In this document: piece after piece, positions 32,300 through 43,310 of the stretch
Position numbering within the stretch: position 1 is the first letter of the stretch
Layout of the letters: every line of letters starts with the position of its first letter
Assembly (NCBI RefSeq): GCF_014202975.1
Contig: NZ_JACHHZ010000003.1
Coordinates: 620,001 to 684,000 of the forward strand
Length of the DNA stretch: 64,000 nucleotides
Reading direction: 5' to 3'
Source of the DNA: Povalibacter uvarum
GTDB taxonomy: Bacteria > Pseudomonadota > Gammaproteobacteria > Steroidobacterales > Steroidobacteraceae
Position numbers and translations under genes: made by a program
Notes under the pieces: model-generated
Told to the model about the DNA's origin: nothing
Databases searched by the model: none
The model's input: only the letters and a program-made list of their open reading frames with translations

Positions 32300-34330
32300 A
32301 TGGTGCGATCGGCTCGAATCGTGGTGATCTGCGCGTTGTCAGTCTTTGGCGTTCCTGCCTTCGCGCAGGACTCAGGCCGGCAGGGTGTACAACTCGGGGA
32401 CATCGATCGCACGGCCGATCCCTGCAACGATTTCTTCCAGTACGCGAACGGCAAGTGGCGCGAAGAAAATCCGATTCCCGCTTCGATGTCGCGCTGGAGC
32501 CGTCGCTGGCAGGCCGGTGAGTCATCGAAGGATCGGCTGCGAACCATCCTCGAAGCAACGGCGTTGACCAAAGCGCCGCGCGGCAGCATCGAACAGCTCA
32601 CCGGCGATTTCTATGCGGGTTGCATGAACGAGACGCAGATCGATCGGTTGGGCGTCGAACCGCTGCGGCCGCTGCTGACTGACATCCGGCAGATGAAGTC
32701 GCCGCAGGACGTGCAGAAGATGATCGTGCGGCTCAACGGCATGGCGATCTCCGCGCCCTTCGCGTTCTACTCGAGTCCGGACAACCACGATCCGTCGTTC
32801 GTCATTGCACAGGTCATCGCATCCGGACTCGGCATGCCCGATCGCGATTACTACGTGAAGCCGGACGAACGTTTCATCCAGGCACGGGAGAAGTACCAGG
32901 CCTACGTCGCCAGGCTCTTCGAGCTCGCGGGTTCAACGAAGGCAGAAGCACAGGCGGCCACGAAAGCTGTCGTCAGGATGGAGACGGAGCTGGCACGGCA
33001 GTCGCTGGACAACGTGGCGCTGCGTGACCCGCAGGCGACCGACCACAAAATGTCGATCGCGCAGTTGCAGAGGCTCACACCCCGTTTCGATTGGAATGCG
33101 TACTACACGGCGTCCGGACTCACCACCGGTGACGTGAACGTTGCCGAGCCGAAGTTCATGGAGGAGGTCGATCGCCAGCTGGGCGCGGCTTCTCCCGATG
33201 ACTGGAAGGCGTACCTGACGTTCCACGTCCTCGACTCCGCGGCACCTTCGTTGTCGAAGCCGTTCGTCGAAGAGCACTTCGGATTCCACAGTGCCTATCT
33301 GCGCGGCGCCAAGGAAATGAAGCCGCGCTGGAAGCGCTGCGTCGAATCGACGGACGAGCAGCTCGGCGAGGCGCTCGGCAAGATCTACGTCGAGAAATAT
33401 TTCCCACCCGAGGCGAAGGCGCGCATGCAGGAGCTCGTGAAGAACCTGCGGCTCGCGATGAAGGAAACGATCGAGGAGCTCGACTGGATGAGCGCGCCGA
33501 CGAAACAGAAGGCGCTCGAGAAGCTGTCCACCTTCAATCCGAAGCTCGGCTATCCGGACAAGTGGAAGGACTACAGCACCGTGCCCGTCAAACGCGATGC
33601 GTTCTGGGGTTCGACCGTCGCGGCGCGTGCCTTCAACGTCAAGGACGATCTGACCCAGATCAACAAGCCTGTCGACCGGGGTCGCTGGTACATGTCGCCG
33701 CCGACATCGGATGCGTATTACAACCCGCCGCTGAACGAGATCGTCTTCCCGGCCGGCATCCTTCAGCCGCCAGCGTTCAGCGTCGATGCGATCGATGCGG
33801 TCAACTACGGCGCGATCGGTGTCGTGATCGGCCACGAGATCAGCCACGGCTTCGACGATCAGGGCTCGCAGTACGACGCGCAGGGCCGCCTCAGGAACTG
33901 GTGGACGGCCGAGGATCTAAAGAAGTTCGAAGCCCGCGGGGCCTGCGTCGTGAAGCAGTTCGACAACTATTTCGTCGAGCCTGGCCTTCATCACAACGGC
34001 CAGCTCGTGCTGGGCGAGAGCATCGGCGACCTGGCCGGCGCGAAGATCGCTTACAGGGCCTTCAAGATTTCACAGCGCGGCAAGCCCGCACCGGCAAGCG
34101 TCGATGGCTTCACGCAGGATCAGCAGTTCTTCATCGCGTGGGGACAGTTTCGCGGCGATGCGGTTCGTCCGGAATTCGCGCGAACGATGGTGCAGGGCGA
34201 TCCTCACCCGATCGGCAAGTACCGCGTGATCGGGCCGCTGTCGAATCTGCCGGAATTCCAGCGGGCGTTCTCGTGCAAGGCCAGCTCGCCGATGGTCCGC
34301 CCGCCGCAGGAGCGCTGCGAAGTCTGGTGA
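32300..34330 (+). CDS. M13-family zinc metallopeptidase (neprilysin/PepO-like)
   Basis: A 676-residue exported protein with signal peptide SARIVVICALSVFGVPAFAQ. It has the M13 hallmarks: N-terminal PCNDFFQYANGKW, the substrate-side stretch NPPLNEIVFPAGILQPPAF, the zinc motif HEISH (512-516) in VVIGHEISHGFDDQGSQYDA, the third ligand E573 in GESIGDLAGAKIAY, and the C-terminal CEVW. These residues are all present, so the enzyme should be an active endopeptidase for short peptides, probably in the periplasm. The family usually has about 670-700 residues. It ends two bases from the convergent small-protein gene. Confidence 0.95.
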   Translation: MVRSARIVVICALSVFGVPAFAQDSGRQGVQLGDIDRTADPCNDFFQYANGKWREENPIPASMSRWSRRWQAGESSKDRLRTILEATALTKAPRGSIEQLTGDFYAGCMNETQIDRLGVEPLRPLLTDIRQMKSPQDVQKMIVRLNGMAISAPFAFYSSPDNHDPSFVIAQVIASGLGMPDRDYYVKPDERFIQAREKYQAYVARLFELAGSTKAEAQAATKAVVRMETELARQSLDNVALRDPQATDHKMSIAQLQRLTPRFDWNAYYTASGLTTGDVNVAEPKFMEEVDRQLGAASPDDWKAYLTFHVLDSAAPSLSKPFVEEHFGFHSAYLRGAKEMKPRWKRCVESTDEQLGEALGKIYVEKYFPPEAKARMQELVKNLRLAMKETIEELDWMSAPTKQKALEKLSTFNPKLGYPDKWKDYSTVPVKRDAFWGSTVAARAFNVKDDLTQINKPVDRGRWYMSPPTSDAYYNPPLNEIVFPAGILQPPAFSVDAIDAVNYGAIGVVIGHEISHGFDDQGSQYDAQGRLRNWWTAEDLKKFEARGACVVKQFDNYFVEPGLHHNGQLVLGESIGDLAGAKIAYRAFKISQRGKPAPASVDGFTQDQQFFIAWGQFRGDAVRPEFARTMVQGDPHPIGKYRVIGPLSNLPEFQRAFSCKASSPMVRPPQERCEVW

Positions 34331-34332
34331 CG

Positions 34333-34488
34333 CTATTGCAGCTGCGTGATCGTTATGGAATAGCCGGGGTGACTGTCGCGCTCGGCGCCGTATGCCCAGG
34401 CACTGAAGCTCCCAGCGACGATTACGACCGACAGCAGCAGACAGACTGCGCGCTGTACAGTCCGGCTGGAACCCTTCGAAACGAACAT
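34333..34488 (-). CDS. 51-residue predicted exported small protein, copy 1
   Basis: The ATG at 34488 follows GAGGAGAAGGCA. The product begins MFVSKGSSRTVQRAVC, has a hydrophobic core (LLLSVVIVAGSFSAWAYG) and ends with the short tail AERDSHPGYSITITQLQ. The core followed by A-Y-G-A looks like a signal peptide with a cleavage site, which would release a peptide of about 17 residues; a membrane-anchored form is the alternative. It is the most divergent of three tandem relatives (see 34832 and 35436), with the same length and the same GYS-x-T-x-TQ-x-Q ending. No family is known to me. Confidence 0.75.
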   Translation of the reverse strand: MFVSKGSSRTVQRAVCLLLSVVIVAGSFSAWAYGAERDSHPGYSITITQLQ

Positions 34489-34628
34489 TGCCTTCTCCTC
34501 ATCGAGCGATTGATTGATGACGAGAAATCTATAGGCAGGCCGGGTGCGCAACCACTAACCATCGTCGGTGTCGTGCGCCCGCGGAAGACAGAGTGCAAGG
34601 CGGCTGAGCGGCGGAACTTGCTTCTTGT

Positions 34629-34739
34629 TGTGGGTCCGGCTTCAGCCGGACGTCATGCCGAAGGCATCTTTCGGAAGTGGATGGCGCACGCGTGCGCCGG
34701 ATCGCTTCGCGATAACGTCCGGCTAAAGCCGGACCCACA
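34629..34739. repeat. Palindromic repeat of the GTGGGTCCGGCTTCAGCCGGAC type, copy 1 (REP-like)
   Basis: An imperfect long inverted repeat: the left end TGTGGGTCCGGCTTCAG is mirrored by the right end CTAAAGCCGGACCCACA, each end itself being a small hairpin. The same ends recur at 60615-60694 and 61323-61397. It sits between the first and second small-protein genes, with no coding frame of its own. Confidence 0.75.
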
Positions 34740-34785
34740 ACAGGAACAGTGCGATCAAGCAGGGGCTTGGCCTCGTGGGCCAAAG

Positions 34786-34821
34786 CCTGCCGGCGCGCCT
34801 CTCATGGGCCACGCCGGCAGG
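34786..34821 (-). terminator. Hairpin downstream of small-protein copy 2
   Basis: The arms CCTGCCGGCG and CGCCGGCAGG (10 bp) lie 10 bases after the stop of copy 2 on the minus strand. The same element follows copy 3 at a nearly equal distance. There is no U-tract, so it may protect or delimit the RNA rather than act as a classical terminator. Confidence 0.5.
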
Positions 34822-34831
34822 GGGCGGGGAA

Positions 34832-34987
34832 TTACTGAATCTGAGTCACCGTCACCGAGTAACCGTCGTGAGCGGCATGCTCGGCGGCAAAGGCACCGAG
34901 CGACAAGCTCACGCTGACGATGACAGCGGCCAGGACCATGCAGACAGCGTTCTGGACTTTGTTGTTGACGACGGTGAGGGCAAACAT
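34832..34987 (-). CDS. 51-residue predicted exported small protein, copy 2
   Basis: The ATG at 34987 follows AAGGAG. The product starts MFALTVVNNKVQNAVCM, has the hydrophobic core VLAAVIVSVSLSLGAFA and ends EHAAHDGYSVTVTQIQ. A signal peptidase site after AFA is likely and would release about 17 residues. It aligns without gaps with copies 1 and 3 over all 51 residues and is closest to copy 3 (the same tail except one residue). Substitutions are mostly conservative and the frame is intact, both of which argue for purifying selection on the protein. Function unknown. Confidence 0.78.
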   Translation of the reverse strand: MFALTVVNNKVQNAVCMVLAAVIVSVSLSLGAFAAEHAAHDGYSVTVTQIQ

Positions 34988-35019
34988 GGCGATTCTCCTT
35001 TGGGTCTCTTCAGTTCGAT

Positions 35020-35033
35020 CCGCATTGTTGCGG
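35020..35033 (-). promoter_or_regulatory. Conserved leader hairpin of small-protein copy 2
   Basis: On the minus strand the sequence is CCGCAACAATGCGG, a 5-bp stem with a 4-nt loop, beginning 33 bases before the start codon. The equivalent site before copy 3 is CCGCAATAACGCGG at the same distance. Flanking bases (GTGTC-TAAC-C-AAC) are also shared, so this is a conserved 5'-leader element. Confidence 0.5.
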
Positions 35034-35130
35034 TGTTGGTGTTAGGACACGGGAGGAGGAGCCAGGGTTACAGCGATTCCGCGAATACCGGCGAGTGACG
35101 GCAGAGTGCCGGTGAGCGTAAGAACGAATC

Positions 35131-35349
35131 CGTCACTCCCACGAAAGCGGGAGTCCATGCATCAGATTCGGATGGATTCCCGCGTGCGCGGGAATGACGA
35201 GGGAGTTCCGTCACCCGCGAAAGCGGGAATGACGAGGCAGTTGCGTCACTCCCGCGAAAGCGGGAACGACGAGGCAGTTGCGTCACTCCCGCGAAAGCGG
35301 GAGTCCACGCATCAGTTCGGATGGATTCCCGCGTGCGCGGGAATGACGG
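35131..35349. repeat. Array of six short palindromic repeats (GTCA-TCCCGC-N-GCGGGA type)
   Basis: Six copies of an approximately 26-base inverted repeat lie at about 35131, 35174, 35209, 35244, 35281 and 35323. Four have the form CGTCACTCCCGCGAAAGCGG and two the form GGATTCCCGCGTGCGCGGGA. A 69-base unit containing one of each form occurs at both ends (35131-35199 and 35281-35349). Another single copy is at 59127-59156. This is a mobile-like intergenic repeat resembling the dRS3-type palindromes of other proteobacteria. It is not a CRISPR, because the spacers are short and unequal and the units vary. Confidence 0.75.
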
Positions 35350-35388
35350 AGGAGGGGGTGGGGGAAGGATTGCGGCTTCCCGCCAATG

Positions 35389-35424
35389 CCTGCCGGCGCG
35401 CCGTTCATTGGCTACGCCGGCAGG
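35389..35424 (-). terminator. Hairpin downstream of small-protein copy 3
   Basis: The arms CCTGCCGGCG and CGCCGGCAGG lie 11 bases after the copy 3 stop, matching the element after copy 2. Loops differ by a few bases. No U-tract follows. Confidence 0.5.
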
Positions 35425-35435
35425 GGGCGAGCGGG

Positions 35436-35591
35436 TTACTGGATCTGAGTCACCGTCACCGAGTAACCGTCCCGAGCCGCGTGCTCGGCGGCAAAGGCAC
35501 CGAGGGACAGGCTGGCGCTGACGATGACAGCCGACAGGAACATGCAGATGGCGCTCTGGGCTTTGCGGCTGATTTCGGTGAAGGCAAACAT
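35436..35591 (-). CDS. 51-residue predicted exported small protein, copy 3
   Basis: The ATG at 35591 follows AAGGAG. The product starts MFAFTEISRKAQSAICM, continues with the hydrophobic core FLSAVIVSASLSLGAFA and ends EHAARDGYSVTVTQIQ. It shares the Cys at position 16, the hydrophobic run, the A-F-A-A-E site and the ten-residue tail with copy 2. The likely mature product is about 17 residues. It is transcribed away from the nap operon, with 317 bases between them; its leader shares that region. It is one of three tandem paralogues and I recognise no described family. Confidence 0.78.
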   Translation of the reverse strand: MFAFTEISRKAQSAICMFLSAVIVSASLSLGAFAAEHAARDGYSVTVTQIQ

Positions 35592-35623
35592 GACGGTCTC
35601 CTTGGGTATCTTCTCTGCGACGT

Positions 35624-35637
35624 CCGCGTTATTGCGG
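35624..35637 (-). promoter_or_regulatory. Conserved leader hairpin of small-protein copy 3
   Basis: CCGCAATAACGCGG on the minus strand, with its first base 33 bases before the start codon, exactly as in copy 2. The loop bases differ while the stem is kept by pairing, which supports an RNA-level role. Confidence 0.5.
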
Positions 35638-35732
35638 GGTTAGCGTTAAGACACGGCAGACCCGCGCAGGGTTACACCGATCTGCGCGATGCCGGTGAGC
35701 CGCGGCGATGTGCCGGCGAGCCCATCCCTGGC

Positions 35733-35847
35733 GCGGGAGGAGGACCCGCAGGCCGGGGACTGAATCCCCGCCGTATCAGTGAGATACGGACGGGCGTCGA
35801 GCACATCCGCGCCCGGGAAGCCACCCTGACGGGCTGTGGAAACCCGT
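35733..35847. other. Hairpin-rich leader upstream of napE
   Basis: Four short perfect hairpins follow one another. They are GCGGG/CCCGC with loop AGGAGGA (35733-35749), CGGGGA/TCCCCG with loop CTGAA (35754-35770), CCGTATC/GATACGG with loop AGTGA (35771-35789) and ACGGG/CCCGT (35829-35847). The region is non-coding, lies 62 bases before the napE start and probably forms its 5' leader, although the divergent small-protein transcript may begin here too. I could not match it to a riboswitch class that I know. Confidence 0.4.
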
Positions 35848-35908
35848 GATTCACACGCCCCGCGTGAGCGAATAGAAATCAGGTTGTCCGCGGTCCACGG
35901 GAGGCGCG

Positions 35909-36055
35909 ATGCAAACAGAAAAAAAGCGCGAACTGATCGTCTTCACCTTTCTCGCGCTCGTGCTCGCACCCATCCTGGCCGTGATCATCGTTGCCGGCTT
36001 CGGCTTCAGTGTCTGGATGTATCAGCTCATCGCCGGTCCGCCCGGCCCTCCTTGA
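35909..36055 (+). CDS. napE: NapE, small membrane protein of the periplasmic nitrate reductase operon
   Basis: The ATG at 35909 follows GGGAGG. The 48-residue product begins MQTEKKREL, has a single membrane helix and includes the family signature FTFLALVLAPILAVIIVAG and VWMYQLIAGPPGPP. NapE proteins are short integral membrane proteins coded at the front of nap operons; their exact role is not settled. It is followed by napD after 19 bases and starts a tightly packed unit. The length and motifs leave little doubt about the assignment. Confidence 0.9.
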   Translation: MQTEKKRELIVFTFLALVLAPILAVIIVAGFGFSVWMYQLIAGPPGPP

Positions 36056-36074
36056 CGCACGCGAGGTCGATTCC

Positions 36075-36413
36075 ATGCATTCCCCGTTGTCACGTCGTGA
36101 TCTCTTTCGCCTGGGCGATGAGCCCGGGCAGGCAGCGCGCGCGCAGGAGATCGTCCACATCGCCAGCCTGTTGCTGCAGGTGTTGCCCGACCGGATCGAT
36201 GCAGTCCGCGAGACAGTTGAGCAGCTTCCGGGCGCGGAACTGCACAGCACAGCGCATCCGGGCAAGTTCGCGGTCGTGCTCGAAGCAGGCAATGAGCGAG
36301 CGCTGGCTGATGCAACAGAGACACTCTCCCGGCTGCCAGGTGTGCTGACCGTTTCCATCGTTGCGCATCTGACCGAACAGGCGTCGGCACTCGACGAGGA
36401 GTGGCAGCCATGA
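36075..36413 (+). CDS. napD: NapD, cytoplasmic chaperone for NapA
   Basis: The 112-residue product starts at the ATG at 36075. The core (from about residue 25) matches Nap[21 protein letters not shown], then [20 protein letters not shown] and [16 protein letters not shown]. NapD binds the NapA signal peptide and delays export until the cofactor is loaded. An unusual N-terminal extension, [20 protein letters not shown], is present and resembles the SRR-type start of NapF or of a Tat leader. The stop overlaps the napA start (ATGA). Confidence 0.9.
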
Positions 36414-38905
36414 ATCGTCGCCAGTTCCTTCGCCGCAGTGCTGCCGCGTCGGCGATTGCCGCGGCTTCCGCGAATCCCGCGCAGGCATCGAACATCATCA
36501 CCGAGTCGCAGTTCACGCGAATGAAGTGGTCGAAGGCGCCGTGCCGGTTCTGCGGAACCGGCTGCGGCGTGCGCGTGGCCGTCAAGGACAACCGGGTCGT
36601 CGCCACGCACGCCGATGCGAACGCCGAGGTCAATCGCGGCCTGAACTGCATCAAGGGCTATTTCCTGTCGAAGATCATGTACGGCACGGACCGTCTGACG
36701 CAGCCGCTGCTGCGCATGACGGACGGGAAGTTCGACAAGAACGGCGAGTTCGTGCCTGTGACGTGGGACCAGGCGTTCGACATCATGGCCGAGAAGTTCA
36801 AAGCGGCGCTGCAAGCGCGAGGACCGGAAGGCGTCGGCATGTTCGGTTCCGGTCAGTGGACGATCTGGGAAGGCTACGCGGCGAACAAGCTGTTCAAAGG
36901 CGGATTCCGCAGCAACAACGTCGATCCCAATGCGCGTCACTGCATGGCATCGGCCGCTTACGCATTCATGCGCACGTTCGGCATGGATGAGCCGATGGGC
37001 TGCTACGACGATTTCGAAGCCGCCGATGCCTTCGTGCTCTGGGGCTCGAACATGGCGGAGATGCATCCGATCCTGTGGTCGCGCGTTGCCGATCGCCGCC
37101 TGTCAGCGCCGCACGTGAAGGTGGCGGTGCTCTCGACGTTCGAGCATCGCTCGTTCGATCTCGCCGACATTCCGCTCGTGATGAAGCCGCAGTCGGACCT
37201 CGCGATCATGAATTACATCGCGAACCACATCATCCAGACGGGCAAGGTGAACAAGGACTTCGTCAGCAAGCACGTGAACTTCAAGCGCGGTGCGACCGAC
37301 ATCGGCTACGGGCTGCGTCCGGATCATGAGCTCGAGAAGAAGGCGAAAAACGCGACCAAGCCGGGCGATTCCGAGCCGATGACGTACGAGGAATTTGCCG
37401 CGTTCGTGAAGCCCTACACGCTGGAGCATGCGGCGAAGCTGTCCGGATGTCCTGAAAGCTGGCTCAAGCAACTGGCCGATCTCTACGCCGATCCGAAAGT
37501 CCGAGTGACTTCGTTCTGGACGATGGGATTCAACCAGCACACGCGCGGCGTGTGGGCCAATCACATGGTCTACAACCTGCACCTGCTCACCGGGAAGATC
37601 GCGACGCCGGGCAACAGTCCATTCTCGCTGACGGGTCAGCCTTCGGCCTGCGGCACGGCGCGCGAGGTCGGCACCTTCGCGCATCGATTGCCAGCCGACA
37701 TGGCGGTCACGAACCCCGATCACCGCAAGCATGCAGAGGAAATATGGAAGCTGCCCGCGGGTACGATCAATCCGAAGCCGGGCTACCACGCGGTCGAACA
37801 GAACCGCATGTTGAAGGACGGGAAACTCAACGCGTACTGGGTCCAGGTCAACAACAACATGCAGGCCGCGGCCAACATGAATGAGGAAGGACTGCCGGGT
37901 TATCGCGACCCGCGCAACTTCATCGTGGTGTCGGAGGTGTATCCGACCGTGACCGCGCAGGCGGCGGACCTGGTTCTTCCGGCAGCGATGTGGGTCGAGA
38001 AAGAAGGGGCGTACGGCAATGCCGAACGTCGCACGCAGTTCTGGCATCAGCTCGTCGATGCACCGGGCCAGTCCCGTTCGGATCTGTGGCAGCTGATGGA
38101 GTTCTCGAAGCGGTTCAAGACCGACGAGGTGTGGACTGCTGAAACGCTCGCGGCGAATCCATCGTATCGCGGCAAGACGCTGTTCGAGGTCCTGTTCGCG
38201 AATGGCCACGCAAATCGCTATCCCCTGAGCGAGACCCATCGTGAATACAACAACCAGGAATCGAAGCACTTCGGCTTCTATGTGCAGAAGGGTCTCTTCG
38301 AGGAATACGCCGAGTTCGGCCGGGGACACGGCCACGATCTCGCGCCCTTCGATACGTATCACCAGGTGACCGGGTTGCGCTGGCCCGTGGTTGACGGCAA
38401 GGAAACGCTGTGGCGCTACAAGGAGGGCACGGATCCCTACGTGAAGAAGGGCGCTGATTTCGAGTTCTACGGCAACAAGGACGGACGCGCGAATATCTTC
38501 GCGCTGCCCTATGAGCCACCCCCCGAGTCGCCGGACGGCGAGTACAACTACTGGCTCGTCACCGGACGTGTCCTGGAGCACTGGCATTCAGGCTCGATGA
38601 CGGGTCGTGTGCCGGAGTTGTACCGCGCGTTCCCGAATGCACTCGTTTTCATGCACCCGGACGACGCGGAGGCGATGAAGATTCGCCGCGGCGTCGAAGT
38701 CCGGGTCGTCTCGCGACGCGGCGAGATCCGTTCGAGGGTCGAAACGCGTGGTCGCAACAAGCCACCGCGAGGCGTCGTGTTCGTGCCGTGGTTCGATGCG
38801 TCGCAGCTCATCAACAAGGTGACGCTGGATGCGACCGATCCGATCTCGAAGCAGACCGATTTCAAGAAATGCGCGGTGAAGATCGTGCCCCTCGGAGCGG
38901 TCTGA
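36410..38905 (+). CDS. napA: NapA, periplasmic nitrate reductase catalytic subunit
   Basis: Translation from the ATG at 36410 (overlapping the napD stop) gives 831 residues. The Tat leader [20 protein letters not shown] is followed by the four Cys of the 4Fe-4S cluster: C45 and C48, then C52 and C80, in [12 protein letters not shown] and GLNCIKG. The Mo-ligand Cys is in [16 protein letters not shown]. The rest matches bis-MGD molybdoenzymes throughout, with no truncation. The enzyme reduces nitrate to nitrite in the periplasm, taking electrons from NapB. Nitrate use may serve respiration or redox balancing. Confidence 0.97.
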
Positions 38906-39407: not shown

Positions 39408-40051
39408 AGCGCCTGAAGGAATTCGCGGTCCGCTGGTGGCAAGTAGTTCGCTCGCCGAGCCGCTACTTCAGCCTCGGTTTCCTCACGATCGGCGGCTTCA
39501 TCGGCGGCATCATCTTCTGGGGTGGATTCAACACCGCACTCGAGGCAACGAACACCGAGGAGTTCTGCACGAGCTGCCACGAGATGCGGGAGAACGTGTT
39601 CGCCGACCTCAAGCACACGATCCACTACAGCAACCGCTCCGGTGTTCGCGCGACGTGCCCGGATTGTCACGTGCCGCACGACTGGTCCGATAAGATTGCG
39701 CGCAAGATGCAAGCCTCGAAGGAAGTCTGGGGCAAGATTTTCGGCACGATCAACACGCGGGAAAAGTTCCTCGACAACCGGCGGGAGCTCGCCGAGCACG
39801 AATGGGCACGGCTCAAGGCGAACGATTCGCTCGAATGCCGCAACTGTCACAACTACCAGTTCATGGATTGGACGCGTCAGAGCGATCGCGCGGTCTATGT
39901 CCATTCGACCGCGCTGGCCGGCAAGGACTACACCTGCATCGATTGCCACAAAGGCATCGCGCACAGCCTGCCCGACATGGAAGGCGTCGAAATGCTCTAC
40001 GGTGCGCCTGTCGAGGAGATCACACCCAACGCCGAGGGCGGCAAGCGCTAG
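39404..40051 (+). CDS. napC: NapC, membrane-anchored tetraheme quinol dehydrogenase
   Basis: A 215-residue protein with one N-terminal membrane anchor ([20 protein letters not shown]) and four heme-binding motifs: CTSCH (55-59, followed by EM), CPDCH (85-89), CRNCH (145-149) and CIDCH (178-182). This is the NapC/NirT layout. It oxidises membrane quinol and reduces NapB. The stop overlaps by four bases (40048-40051) the stop of the convergent kinase gene. No napF, napG or napH follows in this operon. Confidence 0.95.
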
Positions 40052-42675
40052 AGCGAACTGATCGTGTAGCGGCGATCTTTACCGCCCGAGGCGGGCGCTG
40101 GAACTTCGGCCGCCTGCCGTCTCTCGTGATCCAGATCGCGCAACGCGTCGTCGCACGAGCGAAGCGCCAGCTGCGCCGAGTGCAGGTGATCGCTCGCTTC
40201 GGCCGACAGCACCGCATCGCTTTGCGCTGCTGTGAAGACCTGCTCTGAACGACGAAGCAGGGTACGGGCTTCCCGCCACAGCGACTCGCGCCGCTCTGAC
40301 GTAGTCGCGGCGGAAGCGGCGGCCATGCGGGTCCGCCCGAGCCTCATGTCGTTCGTGGCCAGGATGAAGTGCGTGCTGTTAAGGCGCGGCGATTCGGCTC
40401 CTGAGACTCCACGGAGCAGTTTCTGCGCCTCTTCAAGATGACGCGCTGCATCCTCGTGACGGCCGTATGCTTCGAGCGATGACGCCAGCTCACCCTTCGC
40501 CCAGCCCAGCGTGAAGCGAAGTTCTTCGCGCTGGGGATCGGTGTTCGCCAGCGCCTGGAGGCGGTCCACCGCAGCGTTCCGTTTGTCGAGTCCCTCGCGC
40601 GATCTTCCGATCCATGTTGCAGCCTCGCCAGCATCCATGAGGATGAACGCAGCTTCCTTTCGCAGCTCGCTGTCCTGAGGATTTTCAGTCAGCAGCGACT
40701 CGTAGATCTCGAGCGACCGGATCTGGGATGCATACGCGAGCTCGTGGCGGTTGCCGAGCTTCGCAGCCAGGCTGCCGCGGCGGCTGTAGGCTGTCGCAAG
40801 GCCGCGGCGCACCTTGATGCGTGTGTCGCCTTTGAGGATCTGCTGCTCATACAGCTCGATCCCCAGGCCGAGTTCGGCGAGGCCTTCATCGAGCGCGCCT
40901 CTCATCGCTTCGATCGTGCCCCGCACGACGTGAGTCGTCGCCATGAGTCGCGCGTCTTCCTCGTTGGCCTCGGGTCTTTGCACGAGTGTGCGAGCGATCT
41001 GGATCGCTTCGCGCGAGTAGCGGTCCGCGTCATCGAGGGCGCGATTGGACTGGCTGATCTGCGCGATTCGCAGGAAGAGCTGAAGTCGCTCGCGCACCAA
41101 TCCGTTGTCCCATGGCTCGTGCTTCCGGAGCGACTCCCGAAGCTCAAGCGCCTTGCGGAAGCTGCCGATGGCGGTTTCGTTGTTCTGGAGATTCGACGCG
41201 AGGAAGTCGCTCTGCATGTCGCCGACGCGCTCATAGGCACGGGCGAGATCGCGGCGAACCCGTGGATCGTCCGCATTCTCCCGCGCCAGCGCGTCGAGAT
41301 ACTGCAGGGAGTGGCCGATGATCTTCCCGCGCACCGGCAGCGTGCCGGGTAACGGCGTGATCGAGTCATGGACGTCCAGCATGAATGTCTGCGCGAGGCT
41401 GCGGACATCATCGAAATGCCGCTGCGCCCGCTGGCGCTCGAGATCCGCGCGATGCGCCTGCCAGCTGGTGGCGACGATGCCGACGATCAGCGATACGGCG
41501 AAGAGCAAGCCGACAGCCACAAGGGCAAGATTGCGTCCGACGAACTTCCGCAGCCGGTAGCGTTTGCTCTCGGGAGCCGCAGTGACCGGGAAGCCGCCGA
41601 GATACCACGCAGCATCCTGAGAGAGCTGCTGCACGGATTCATAGCGGCGCTGCGGATCTTTGTGCAGTGCCTTGAGAACGATGTTGTCGAGATCGCCACG
41701 CAGTTGCGAAGGAGAGCAGGGTGCCTCGACACCTTGCACCGCCAGGCTCGGGCGACGCGGTGCCTGCTCGCAGATCTGTCGTGCAACGTCGTAGTAGGCG
41801 GTGCCTTCCATCTGATAGACGGGCTGCGCTGTCAGCAGGCGGTACAGCAGCACACCGAGCGAATAGATGTCGCTGGCGGTAGTCAGCGGTTCACCGCGAA
41901 TCTGCTCCGGGCTTGCGTACTCGGGTGTCAACGCGACGGTGCATGTATGGGGTTGATGCGCGTGCCCGTGCTCCGGATCGAGCAGTCGCGCGATGCCGAA
42001 GTCGAGGAGCTTGACGATGCCGTCCTCGTTGACGAGCACGTTGCTGCACTTGATGTCGCCGTGAACCATGAGATGGCGATGCACGTGATGAACGGCGTCG
42101 CAAAGCGTCCGGAAGAGCCGAAGTCGCGCGACGATGCTCAGCTTGCGACGTTCACAGTACACATCGATGGGTTCGCCACGGACGTACTCCATCACGAGGT
42201 AGGGAACGCCATCCTGCGTGCTGCCGCCGTCGAGCAGGTGCGCGATGTTCGGATGACTGAGGCGGGCCAGCATCTGGCGCTCGGCACGGAAGCGGCGCAT
42301 CAGCGCTTCGGGCTCGTGCGTGCGGTACAGAAGCTTGATCGCGACTTCGTGCTCGAACTGTTCCTCGATCCGCGTCGCACGGAAAACCGCGCTCATGCCG
42401 CCGCGGCCGATCTCTTCGAGAATGCGATAGCGACCGACCGTCTGTCCGGGCCAGTGAGTCGGTGTCGTGGAGGTCAGGGGCCGGCCGTGCTCGACGGCCG
42501 GAACATCGATGAAGTTCGGCGCGCCTTCATGTGCTTCGATCAGAGAGTGAACTTCGCTGCGCAGGCCGTCGTCGCCTGCGCAGGCGCTTTCGAGCCATCG
42601 ATCGCGGGTTTGCGGGTCCTGTTCGAGAGCGGCGCAGAGGACGTCCTTGACCTGCTGCCAGCGGTCCGGCGTCAT
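40048..42675 (-). CDS. Second membrane Ser/Thr protein kinase with C-terminal helical repeats
   Basis: The ATG at 42675 overlaps the sigma stop (ATGA) and gives 875 residues. The N-terminal cap is [20 protein letters not shown]. The kinase domain shows the Gly loop [14 protein letters not shown] and VAIKLLYR with the ATP Lys. The catalytic loop is [12 protein letters not shown] (HGD at 205-207, with Gly in place of the usual Arg), followed by [10 protein letters not shown] and [12 protein letters not shown] membrane segment, [20 protein letters not shown], lies near residue 382. The outer part is made of helical TPR-like repeats. It very probably phosphorylates the adjacent ECF sigma. Confidence 0.9.
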
Positions 42676-43310
42676 CGAGCCGGCTGCGCGAGTTCGCGGC
42701 GCAGCCATGCCCTGGCTGCTACCCATTCGCGCTTGACGGTGGCCTCGGAGATGTTCAATGCCTGCGCCGTCTGCTCGACAGTGAGGCCGCCGAAGTAGCG
42801 CATCTCCACGACTTGCGACTGTCTCACGTCGAGTGCTTCCAGCTGCGAGAGCAGATCGTCGAGTGCGGTGATGTCCTCGCTGCTGGCGGCTTCCGTGAGG
42901 AAGAACTCGCCGGCGGCAATGCACGGCAGCCAGTCATCATTCATGCCCCCCGTGGATTGGGCGTCTTCGAGCAGATCGCTCGAAATCCGCACGGCGTCGC
43001 CACCGCGCTTGCTGCTCAGTCGTGCCCGTGCGTGATCCACCAGGATGCGCCGCATGACGGTGGATGCGACGGCGAAGAAGTGTGCGCGATCCCGGATGTC
43101 GACCGACTGCAGCTTCACCAGTCGCATGAAAGCTTCGTTGACGAGCGCCGTTCCCTGCAGCGTGTGATCCCGGCGTTCGCGTCGCACGTGTTCGCGGGCC
43201 ATCGCCCGCAGCTCACGATAGAGAAGCGACATGAGGTCGGCTATGGCGTCGGAGTCGCCTGCACGCCACTGCCGCAGCAGGTGCGTAACGCTAAGTGCAG
43301 ATGTGTCCAT
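42672..43310 (-). CDS. Second ECF sigma factor of the kinase-associated type
   Basis: The 212-residue factor has the pattern VTHLLRQWRAGDSDAIADLM for sigma-2 and LSQLEALDVRQSQVVEMRYF, then VEQTAQALNISEATVKREWV for the sigma-4 helix-turn-helix. The sigma-2.2 acidic motif is replaced by Q52-G53-T54-A55-L-V-N-E, so a Thr stands where a Glu is usual. It contains the LVDHARARLSSKRGG signature of TIGR02999-type factors. It is translationally coupled to the kinase gene, whose product could supply the missing negative charge by phosphorylation. Its targets may include the divergent TonB receptor. Confidence 0.9.
   Translation of the reverse strand: MDTSALSVTHLLRQWRAGDSDAIADLMSLLYRELRAMAREHVRRERRDHTLQGTALVNEAFMRLVKLQSVDIRDRAHFFAVASTVMRRILVDHARARLSSKRGGDAVRISSDLLEDAQSTGGMNDDWLPCIAAGEFFLTEAASSEDITALDDLLSQLEALDVRQSQVVEMRYFGGLTVEQTAQALNISEATVKREWVAARAWLRRELAQPAR

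Follow-up and report, generated by a model that had tools for sequence, protein, structure and literature searches.

The window, a 64,000-nucleotide stretch of a contig from the soil bacterium Povalibacter uvarum, contains three minus-strand open reading frames (ORFs) of 51 residues, referred to here as copies 1, 2 and 3 (Table 1). An earlier note had reported these frames, and all three were present at the positions it gave. It had assigned them the span 34333-35640; coding sequence reaches only to 35591 (minus strand), and in 35592-35720 copy 3 has its leader, promoter and repeat box. The good ribosome-binding sites it described were also found, each copy having an ATG preceded by AAGGAG or GAGGAG, as do 28 of 28 members of the family described below. 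Protein identity is 76% between copies 2 and 3 and 47% between copies 1 and 3. Copies 2 and 3, 604 nt apart, share 85% nucleotide identity over 160 nt spanning the entire gene and are a tandem duplication that includes the downstream hairpin block. Copy 1 converges with an M13-type peptidase-like gene (32300-34330), their stop codons lying 2 nt apart.

Palindromic repeats of two kinds, resembling REP/BIME elements, occupy the gaps between the three copies (35131-35354 and 34622-34746); one kind is TTCCCGCGTGCGCGGGAATGACG with its variants, and the other, GTTGTGGGTCCGGCTTCAGCCGGAC, forms a large inverted pair. A NapE gene (48 aa, 35909-36055, plus strand) and a NapD gene (36075-36413, plus strand) lead into the gene for a large molybdopterin oxidoreductase (36401-38905), which places the three copies beside a periplasmic nitrate reductase cluster. 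Adjacency to a nap cluster is repeated in G002 (L055) and is absent for the members of other genomes. A large Ser/Thr protein kinase-like ORF (40048-42924, minus strand) is a signalling gene close to the locus.

Table 1. Positions of the small genes, their predicted signals and related host loci (window coordinates unless a contig, C, is named)
Feature	Position	Strand	Remark
Copy 1, 51-aa small protein, predicted exported	34333..34488	-	MFVSKGSS...GYSITITQLQ; diverged, lacks repeat box and ECF-type promoter
Copy 2, 51-aa small protein, predicted exported	34832..34987	-	MFALTVVN...GYSVTVTQIQ
Copy 3, 51-aa small protein, predicted exported	35436..35591	-	MFAFTEIS...GYSVTVTQIQ
Shine-Dalgarno of copy 1	34495..34500	-	GAGGAG
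Shine-Dalgarno of copy 2	34995..35000	-	AAGGAG
Shine-Dalgarno of copy 3	35598..35603	-	AAGGAG
Strong hairpin after copy 2	34786..34821	-	10 nt past stop codon; probable 3' end or stabilising hairpin
Strong hairpin after copy 3	35389..35424	-	11 nt past stop codon
5'-UTR stem of copy 2	35020..35033	-	CCGCAACAATGCGG
5'-UTR stem of copy 3	35624..35638	-	CCCGCAATAACGCGG
ECF-type promoter of copy 2	35042..35072	-	TGTAACCC-N13-CGTGTCCTAA
ECF-type promoter of copy 3	35646..35676	-	TGTAACCC-N13-CGTGTCTTAA
21-nt-period direct-repeat box of copy 2	35086..35116	-	CTCACCGGCA-N11-CTCGCCGGTA; probable LytTR site (putative)
21-nt-period direct-repeat box of copy 3	35690..35720	-	CTCGCCGGCA-N11-CTCACCGGCA; probable LytTR site (putative)
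Further host copy	C3:579173-579325	-	
Further host copy	C2:95898-96050	+	
Further host copy	C2:112562-112717	+	
LiaF-TM (two genes), LytS-type histidine kinase and LytTR response regulator operon	host (G000) C2 ~304.7-307.8 kb		L208; box in front
LytTR gene	host C2 ~304.7-305.4 kb		

A family of small proteins in Steroidobacter relatives

The host genome (6.3 Mb) holds six copies, three of them in the window. Homologues in related genomes, on which the earlier note had made its claim depend, were found in 12 of the 14 genomes of the GTDB genus containing Steroidobacter, Peristeroidobacter and related MAGs (G005 and G009 gave no member), with genus orthologues matching at E values down to 1e-26. 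One clear member lies outside the genus (L147); otherwise a class-wide search of 369 genomes gave just weak partial matches beyond it, and an order-wide search of 396 genomes gave no convincing extra members. Full ORFs were read for 28 members, from the 12 genus genomes and the one genome outside. They range from 48 to 55 residues. In alignments of the genus members M1, C16 and V24 are invariant, and the conserved Cys at position 16 pointed out in the window copies thus extends across the genus. The shared tail GYS(V/I)T(V/I)TQ(I/L)Q held for the window copies but not for the wider family: most members end in GYSVTVTQLQ, and the others in VTVHY (L013, L016), VTITQIA and relatives (L006, L024 and others) or RAQVIVEVA (L082-L084). 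The RAQVIVEVA type, with this or a similar ending, is a third subfamily of 51-52-aa ORFs (L082 1210-1365, L083 9878-10033, L084 5136-5288), with an ECF-type promoter and a syntenic position close to an ABC-F-like ATPase gene or the gene following it.

The view that no described family has this ending agreed with our searches, in which the 51-aa proteins had no match in Pfam or PADLOC, no relevant match in NCBIfam and no significant match in PHROG; a literature search for the tail YSVTVTQ found nothing. There was also no plasmid match and no confirmed viral-contig match, and on these and the PADLOC and PHROG results a phage, plasmid or defence origin was rejected. Neighbourhoods vary, those in common mirror orthology only, and they contained no conserved neighbour gene that would give a binding partner.

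Pooled pN/pS was 0.35 for the subfamily of the window copies and 0.43 for the main syntenic orthologue group. Eight pairs, not all strictly independent, gave 105 synonymous and 150 nonsynonymous changes where the neutral expectation is 72% nonsynonymous; nonsynonymous changes are therefore rarer than under neutrality (p = 2e-6), and not equal in rate to synonymous ones, the outcome that the earlier note had set against its own claim. The last ten alignment columns by themselves also fell below the neutral expectation for nonsynonymous changes (p = 4e-4), and some divergent pairs (L003-L018; the sigma-54 group) were nearer neutral. Judged by these substitutions, the family ORFs are real genes under purifying selection. 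Given six genomic copies, genus-wide orthologues and purifying selection, the likeness among the copies is not due to chance, and on the sequence evidence the 51-aa ORFs are a previously undescribed orphan family of ~50-residue proteins that is almost confined to Steroidobacter relatives.

Residues 1-12 are polar, frequently including R or K, and residues ~14-31 are hydrophobic, with an 18-residue hydropathy maximum of 1.9-2.7. In 26 of the 28 members positions 32 and 34, the -3 and -1 sites, carry small residues, and a variable linker (35-42) separates residue 34 from the conserved tail. The signal-peptidase-like site proposed past the core, leaving ~17 residues in the window copies, is therefore a feature of nearly the whole family, and with n, h and c regions in place the proteins are still candidates for secretion or a periplasmic location, export being predicted. 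The anatomy is compatible both with a single membrane anchor and with a Sec signal peptide that signal peptidase I could cut, and a cut to a ~17-residue peptide is plausible. An AlphaFold2 model from a 16-row alignment was a single helix (mean pLDDT 71, ~53 in the tail); it is a low-confidence prediction and uninformative about the tail. A lipoprotein was rejected, there being no lipobox ([LVI]-[ASTVI]-[GAS]-C): C16 lies where the hydrophobic stretch begins, and the residue before it is V, I, L or T, not G, A or S, in nearly all members.

Promoter units and the genes that share them

Alignment of the upstream regions resolved separate modules, and most members have their own promoter unit of direct repeat, ECF-type promoter and 5'-UTR stem. 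The repeat box, TTCRCCGGYA-N11-TTCRCCGGYA with a 21-nt period, is present in the 15 class-B members that served for its profile, its second 10-nt half-site lying 13-14 nt from the -35 or, one helical turn more, 24-25 nt. The ECF-type promoter, TGYAACCY-N13-YGYRTC, precedes 20 members, a stem (CCGCAATAACGCGG) lies close to the start of the probable 5'-UTR, and a strong hairpin follows shortly past the stop codon of most members. In place of box and ECF promoter, a sigma-54-like site, TGGCACG-N4-CTGCAA, lies 71-79 nt ahead of the ATG in five members. The pattern TGGCACG-N4-YTGCA is carried by all five, and in 2.06 Mb of the host genome it matched once, before that genome's own member of the class. 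The members with a sigma-54-like promoter (L006, L023, L024, L026, L147) also have altered tails. Upstream of copy 1 there is neither box nor ECF motif, and L005, L016 and the VIVE-tail group have the ECF-type motif and no box. With these exceptions, no single regulator covers the family, and members may answer different stresses.

A profile of the box, built from the 15 family promoters, was used to scan 2.06 Mb, about a third, of the host genome. Six matches scored at least 20, two of them copies 2 and 3; because the profile was trained on the family, independent evidence comes from the non-family matches only. The remaining four lie upstream of DUF2807, SPFH/stomatin, YqiJ+flotillin and LiaF-like (LiaF-TM pair) genes, the YqiJ-side box overlapping a divergent ORF as called, whose start is uncertain. 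Weaker intergenic matches follow, including one ahead of an ABC exporter gene that is accompanied by two permease-like genes, and most others are coding. Across the genus the box, with at most one mismatch, gave 27 matches, and its reversed control gave 0. Family promoters account for nine of the 27; the 18 others include YqiJ/flotillin (three genomes), LiaF-TM genes (two), DUF2807 (host genome), an ABC exporter (one genome) and an exported protein without a name (three), the rest being coding or unassigned sequence. A ~200-aa exported protein family (VTAVWKAQQVNFEYRGYSTMYSCR...; L313, L307, L299) has the 21-nt box ~95 nt upstream in three genomes, and its N-terminal 110 residues had no Pfam match. 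LiaI-LiaF-TM, Toastrack (DUF4097/DUF2807) and YqiJ/flotillin proteins are all partners of the phage-shock (PSP) envelope response (PMC11237479). In sharing its box with LiaF-like, Toastrack, flotillin and exporter genes, the family has what marks a Lia/Psp regulon by regulation.

A typical LytTR site consists of 9-bp direct repeats separated by 12 bp and located upstream of the -35, thus having a 21-nt period, and LytTR regulators often govern their own operon (PMC6193735). The class-B repeats have that 21-nt period and agree with LytTR targets taken as direct repeats of ~9 bp, 11-13 bp apart, upstream of the -35; the similarity of the box core RCCGGYA to the LytTR consensus ACCRCTTAT is partial. 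A LytTR regulator was proposed from the repeat geometry first, and the LytTR gene in the box-bearing LiaF-like operon (L208) was found afterwards. This operon is probably an autoregulated envelope-stress system in a gammaproteobacterium. No description of a Steroidobacter LytTR/LiaF-like regulon was found in the open-access papers that were searched.

The strict ECF motif had eight perfect matches in the host genome, three of them at family genes, and the other five lie ~30-45 nt before ORFs whose N-termini resemble signal peptides or membrane segments. These ORFs include a DUF4097 protein, a DUF6249 protein and, with similarities below cut-off, a repeat protein weakly like LiaX and a protein weakly like ChaN. 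The relaxed motif matched five times in 2.06 Mb of the host genome, never in coding sequence. A site with one mismatch lies before a UrcA gene of the host, and the site recurs before several further UrcA genes in the genus. An ECF sigma gene with a zf-HC2 anti-sigma gene behind it (C5 ~55 kb) runs divergently from the DUF6249 gene, and this sigma gene itself has a similar site, CGCAACC...CGTC, upstream. The zf-HC2-linked ECF factor is likely the cognate sigma of the ECF-type promoters.

Function and alternative readings

Function is better indicated by features absent from the earlier note, namely the further copies, the arrangement of the promoters and the envelope-stress regulon, than by its signal-peptide argument. 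We consider it probable that the 51-aa family consists of Sec-exported small effectors of a Lia/Psp-like envelope-stress response. Membrane damage would be sensed through the LiaF-like/LytS-type kinase operon, whose LytTR response regulator would bind a pair of TTCRCCGGYA half-sites with 21-nt spacing, which lie upstream of the ECF-type promoter by about one helical turn or two. An RpoE-like sigma, restrained by the zf-HC2 anti-sigma, would read this promoter, and the two factors would jointly drive short, hairpin-bounded mRNAs. The hydrophobic segment (~14-31) would insert the product and leave its conserved tail on the periplasmic side; there the beta-prone YSVTVTQLQ end would, at a guess, bind a periplasmic partner or the stressed membrane. 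We infer that this LytTR protein and this ECF factor are the regulators, that stress induces the genes, and that the products are exported with this topology.

Alternatively, the proteins might be precursors of secreted peptides, cut by signal peptidase near residue 34 to release a ~17-residue extracellular signal or antimicrobial ending in YSVTVTQLQ. The -3/-1 rule satisfied in 26 of 28, and a variable linker followed by ten residues under purifying selection, are as in leader plus mature-peptide genes. LytTR systems govern Streptococcus bacteriocin genes (PMC6193735), and an ABC exporter bears the same box. But that exporter is not adjacent, family genes have no conserved receptor, maturation or immunity gene next to them, and the hydrophobic core is conserved too (C16 and V24 invariant), which is unusual for a discarded leader; we regard this reading as unlikely. 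A version that we find quite improbable has the released periplasmic or secreted peptide feeding back on the LiaF-like/LytS sensor, as a Gram-negative peptide alarm for envelope stress whose ECF-, LytTR- and sigma-54-wired paralogues carry different tails.

Stress-induced, membrane-active type I toxins like Hok/Ldr, restrained by antisense RNA, would share the family's size, its single hydrophobic segment and short tail, predicted periplasmic, its tandem and dispersed copies and its narrow distribution. The genes, however, have a conserved short 5'-UTR and a strong Shine-Dalgarno with no long inhibitory leader, no Rfam match was found within 33000-37000, and the promoter elements are common to protective-type genes, so that toxins of this kind seem very improbable. 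The Rfam result for the same interval lent no support to a structured RNA either. That the genes are UrcA remnants, a leader and first beta-strand (SVxVxYxDLDL) ended by an early stop, is scarcely credible: tails such as QYTVTVHY* do look like the opening of UrcA strand 1, and the same ECF-type promoter precedes several UrcA genes, including one in the host genome, but hhalign gave a profile-profile probability of 0.6% (no relation), no tested member matched TIGR04433, the C16 pattern is missing from UrcA leaders, and maintained length and selection mean that the family is not a product of decay.

Small exported proteins often escape gene callers and profile libraries. For this orphan family of candidate stress effectors, its own promoters suffice for a probable placement in an envelope-stress response, and through it a probable LytTR/LiaF-like regulon comes to light in Steroidobacter. 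With paralogues that combine the same leader, different tails and three promoter types, it is also a compact test case.

Relation to known systems

Small membrane proteins are normal members of Lia/Psp modules (LiaI, PspB, PspG). Like those modules (LiaIHGFSR, VraTSR, PspABC; PMC11237479), the present system has LiaF-TM, Toastrack and YqiJ/flotillin genes and a two-component system, which share the family's promoter elements. The differences are that no LiaI-LiaF-TM, PspB or PspC model matches the 51-aa proteins, that the response regulator belongs to the LytTR and not the LiaR type, and that the genes are dispersed single units outside the operon. LytTR direct-repeat promoters likewise have two short repeats of 21-nt period upstream of the -35, and LytTR systems a membrane-protein partner and probable positive autoregulation (PMC6193735); they differ in the core (ACCRCTTAT, versus RCCGGYA here), in the ECF-type promoter found downstream here, and in the 13-14 or 24-25 nt here between the second half-site and the -35. 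The UrcA proteins (TIGR04433) are also small and exported, several with the same ECF-type promoter, and have a short VTV-type strand past the leader, whereas the family has no detectable homology to them, ~51 instead of ~120 residues, and no UrcA domain. The small stress-induced membrane proteins of E. coli (below ~50 aa) resemble the family in size, single hydrophobic segment and stress-type promoters. No sequence relation to them was found, and the family differs in its conserved beta-prone tail, predicted to be periplasmic. In sum, the family by its predicted regulation resembles a small member of the Lia/Psp response, and by sequence it stands outside every modelled family.
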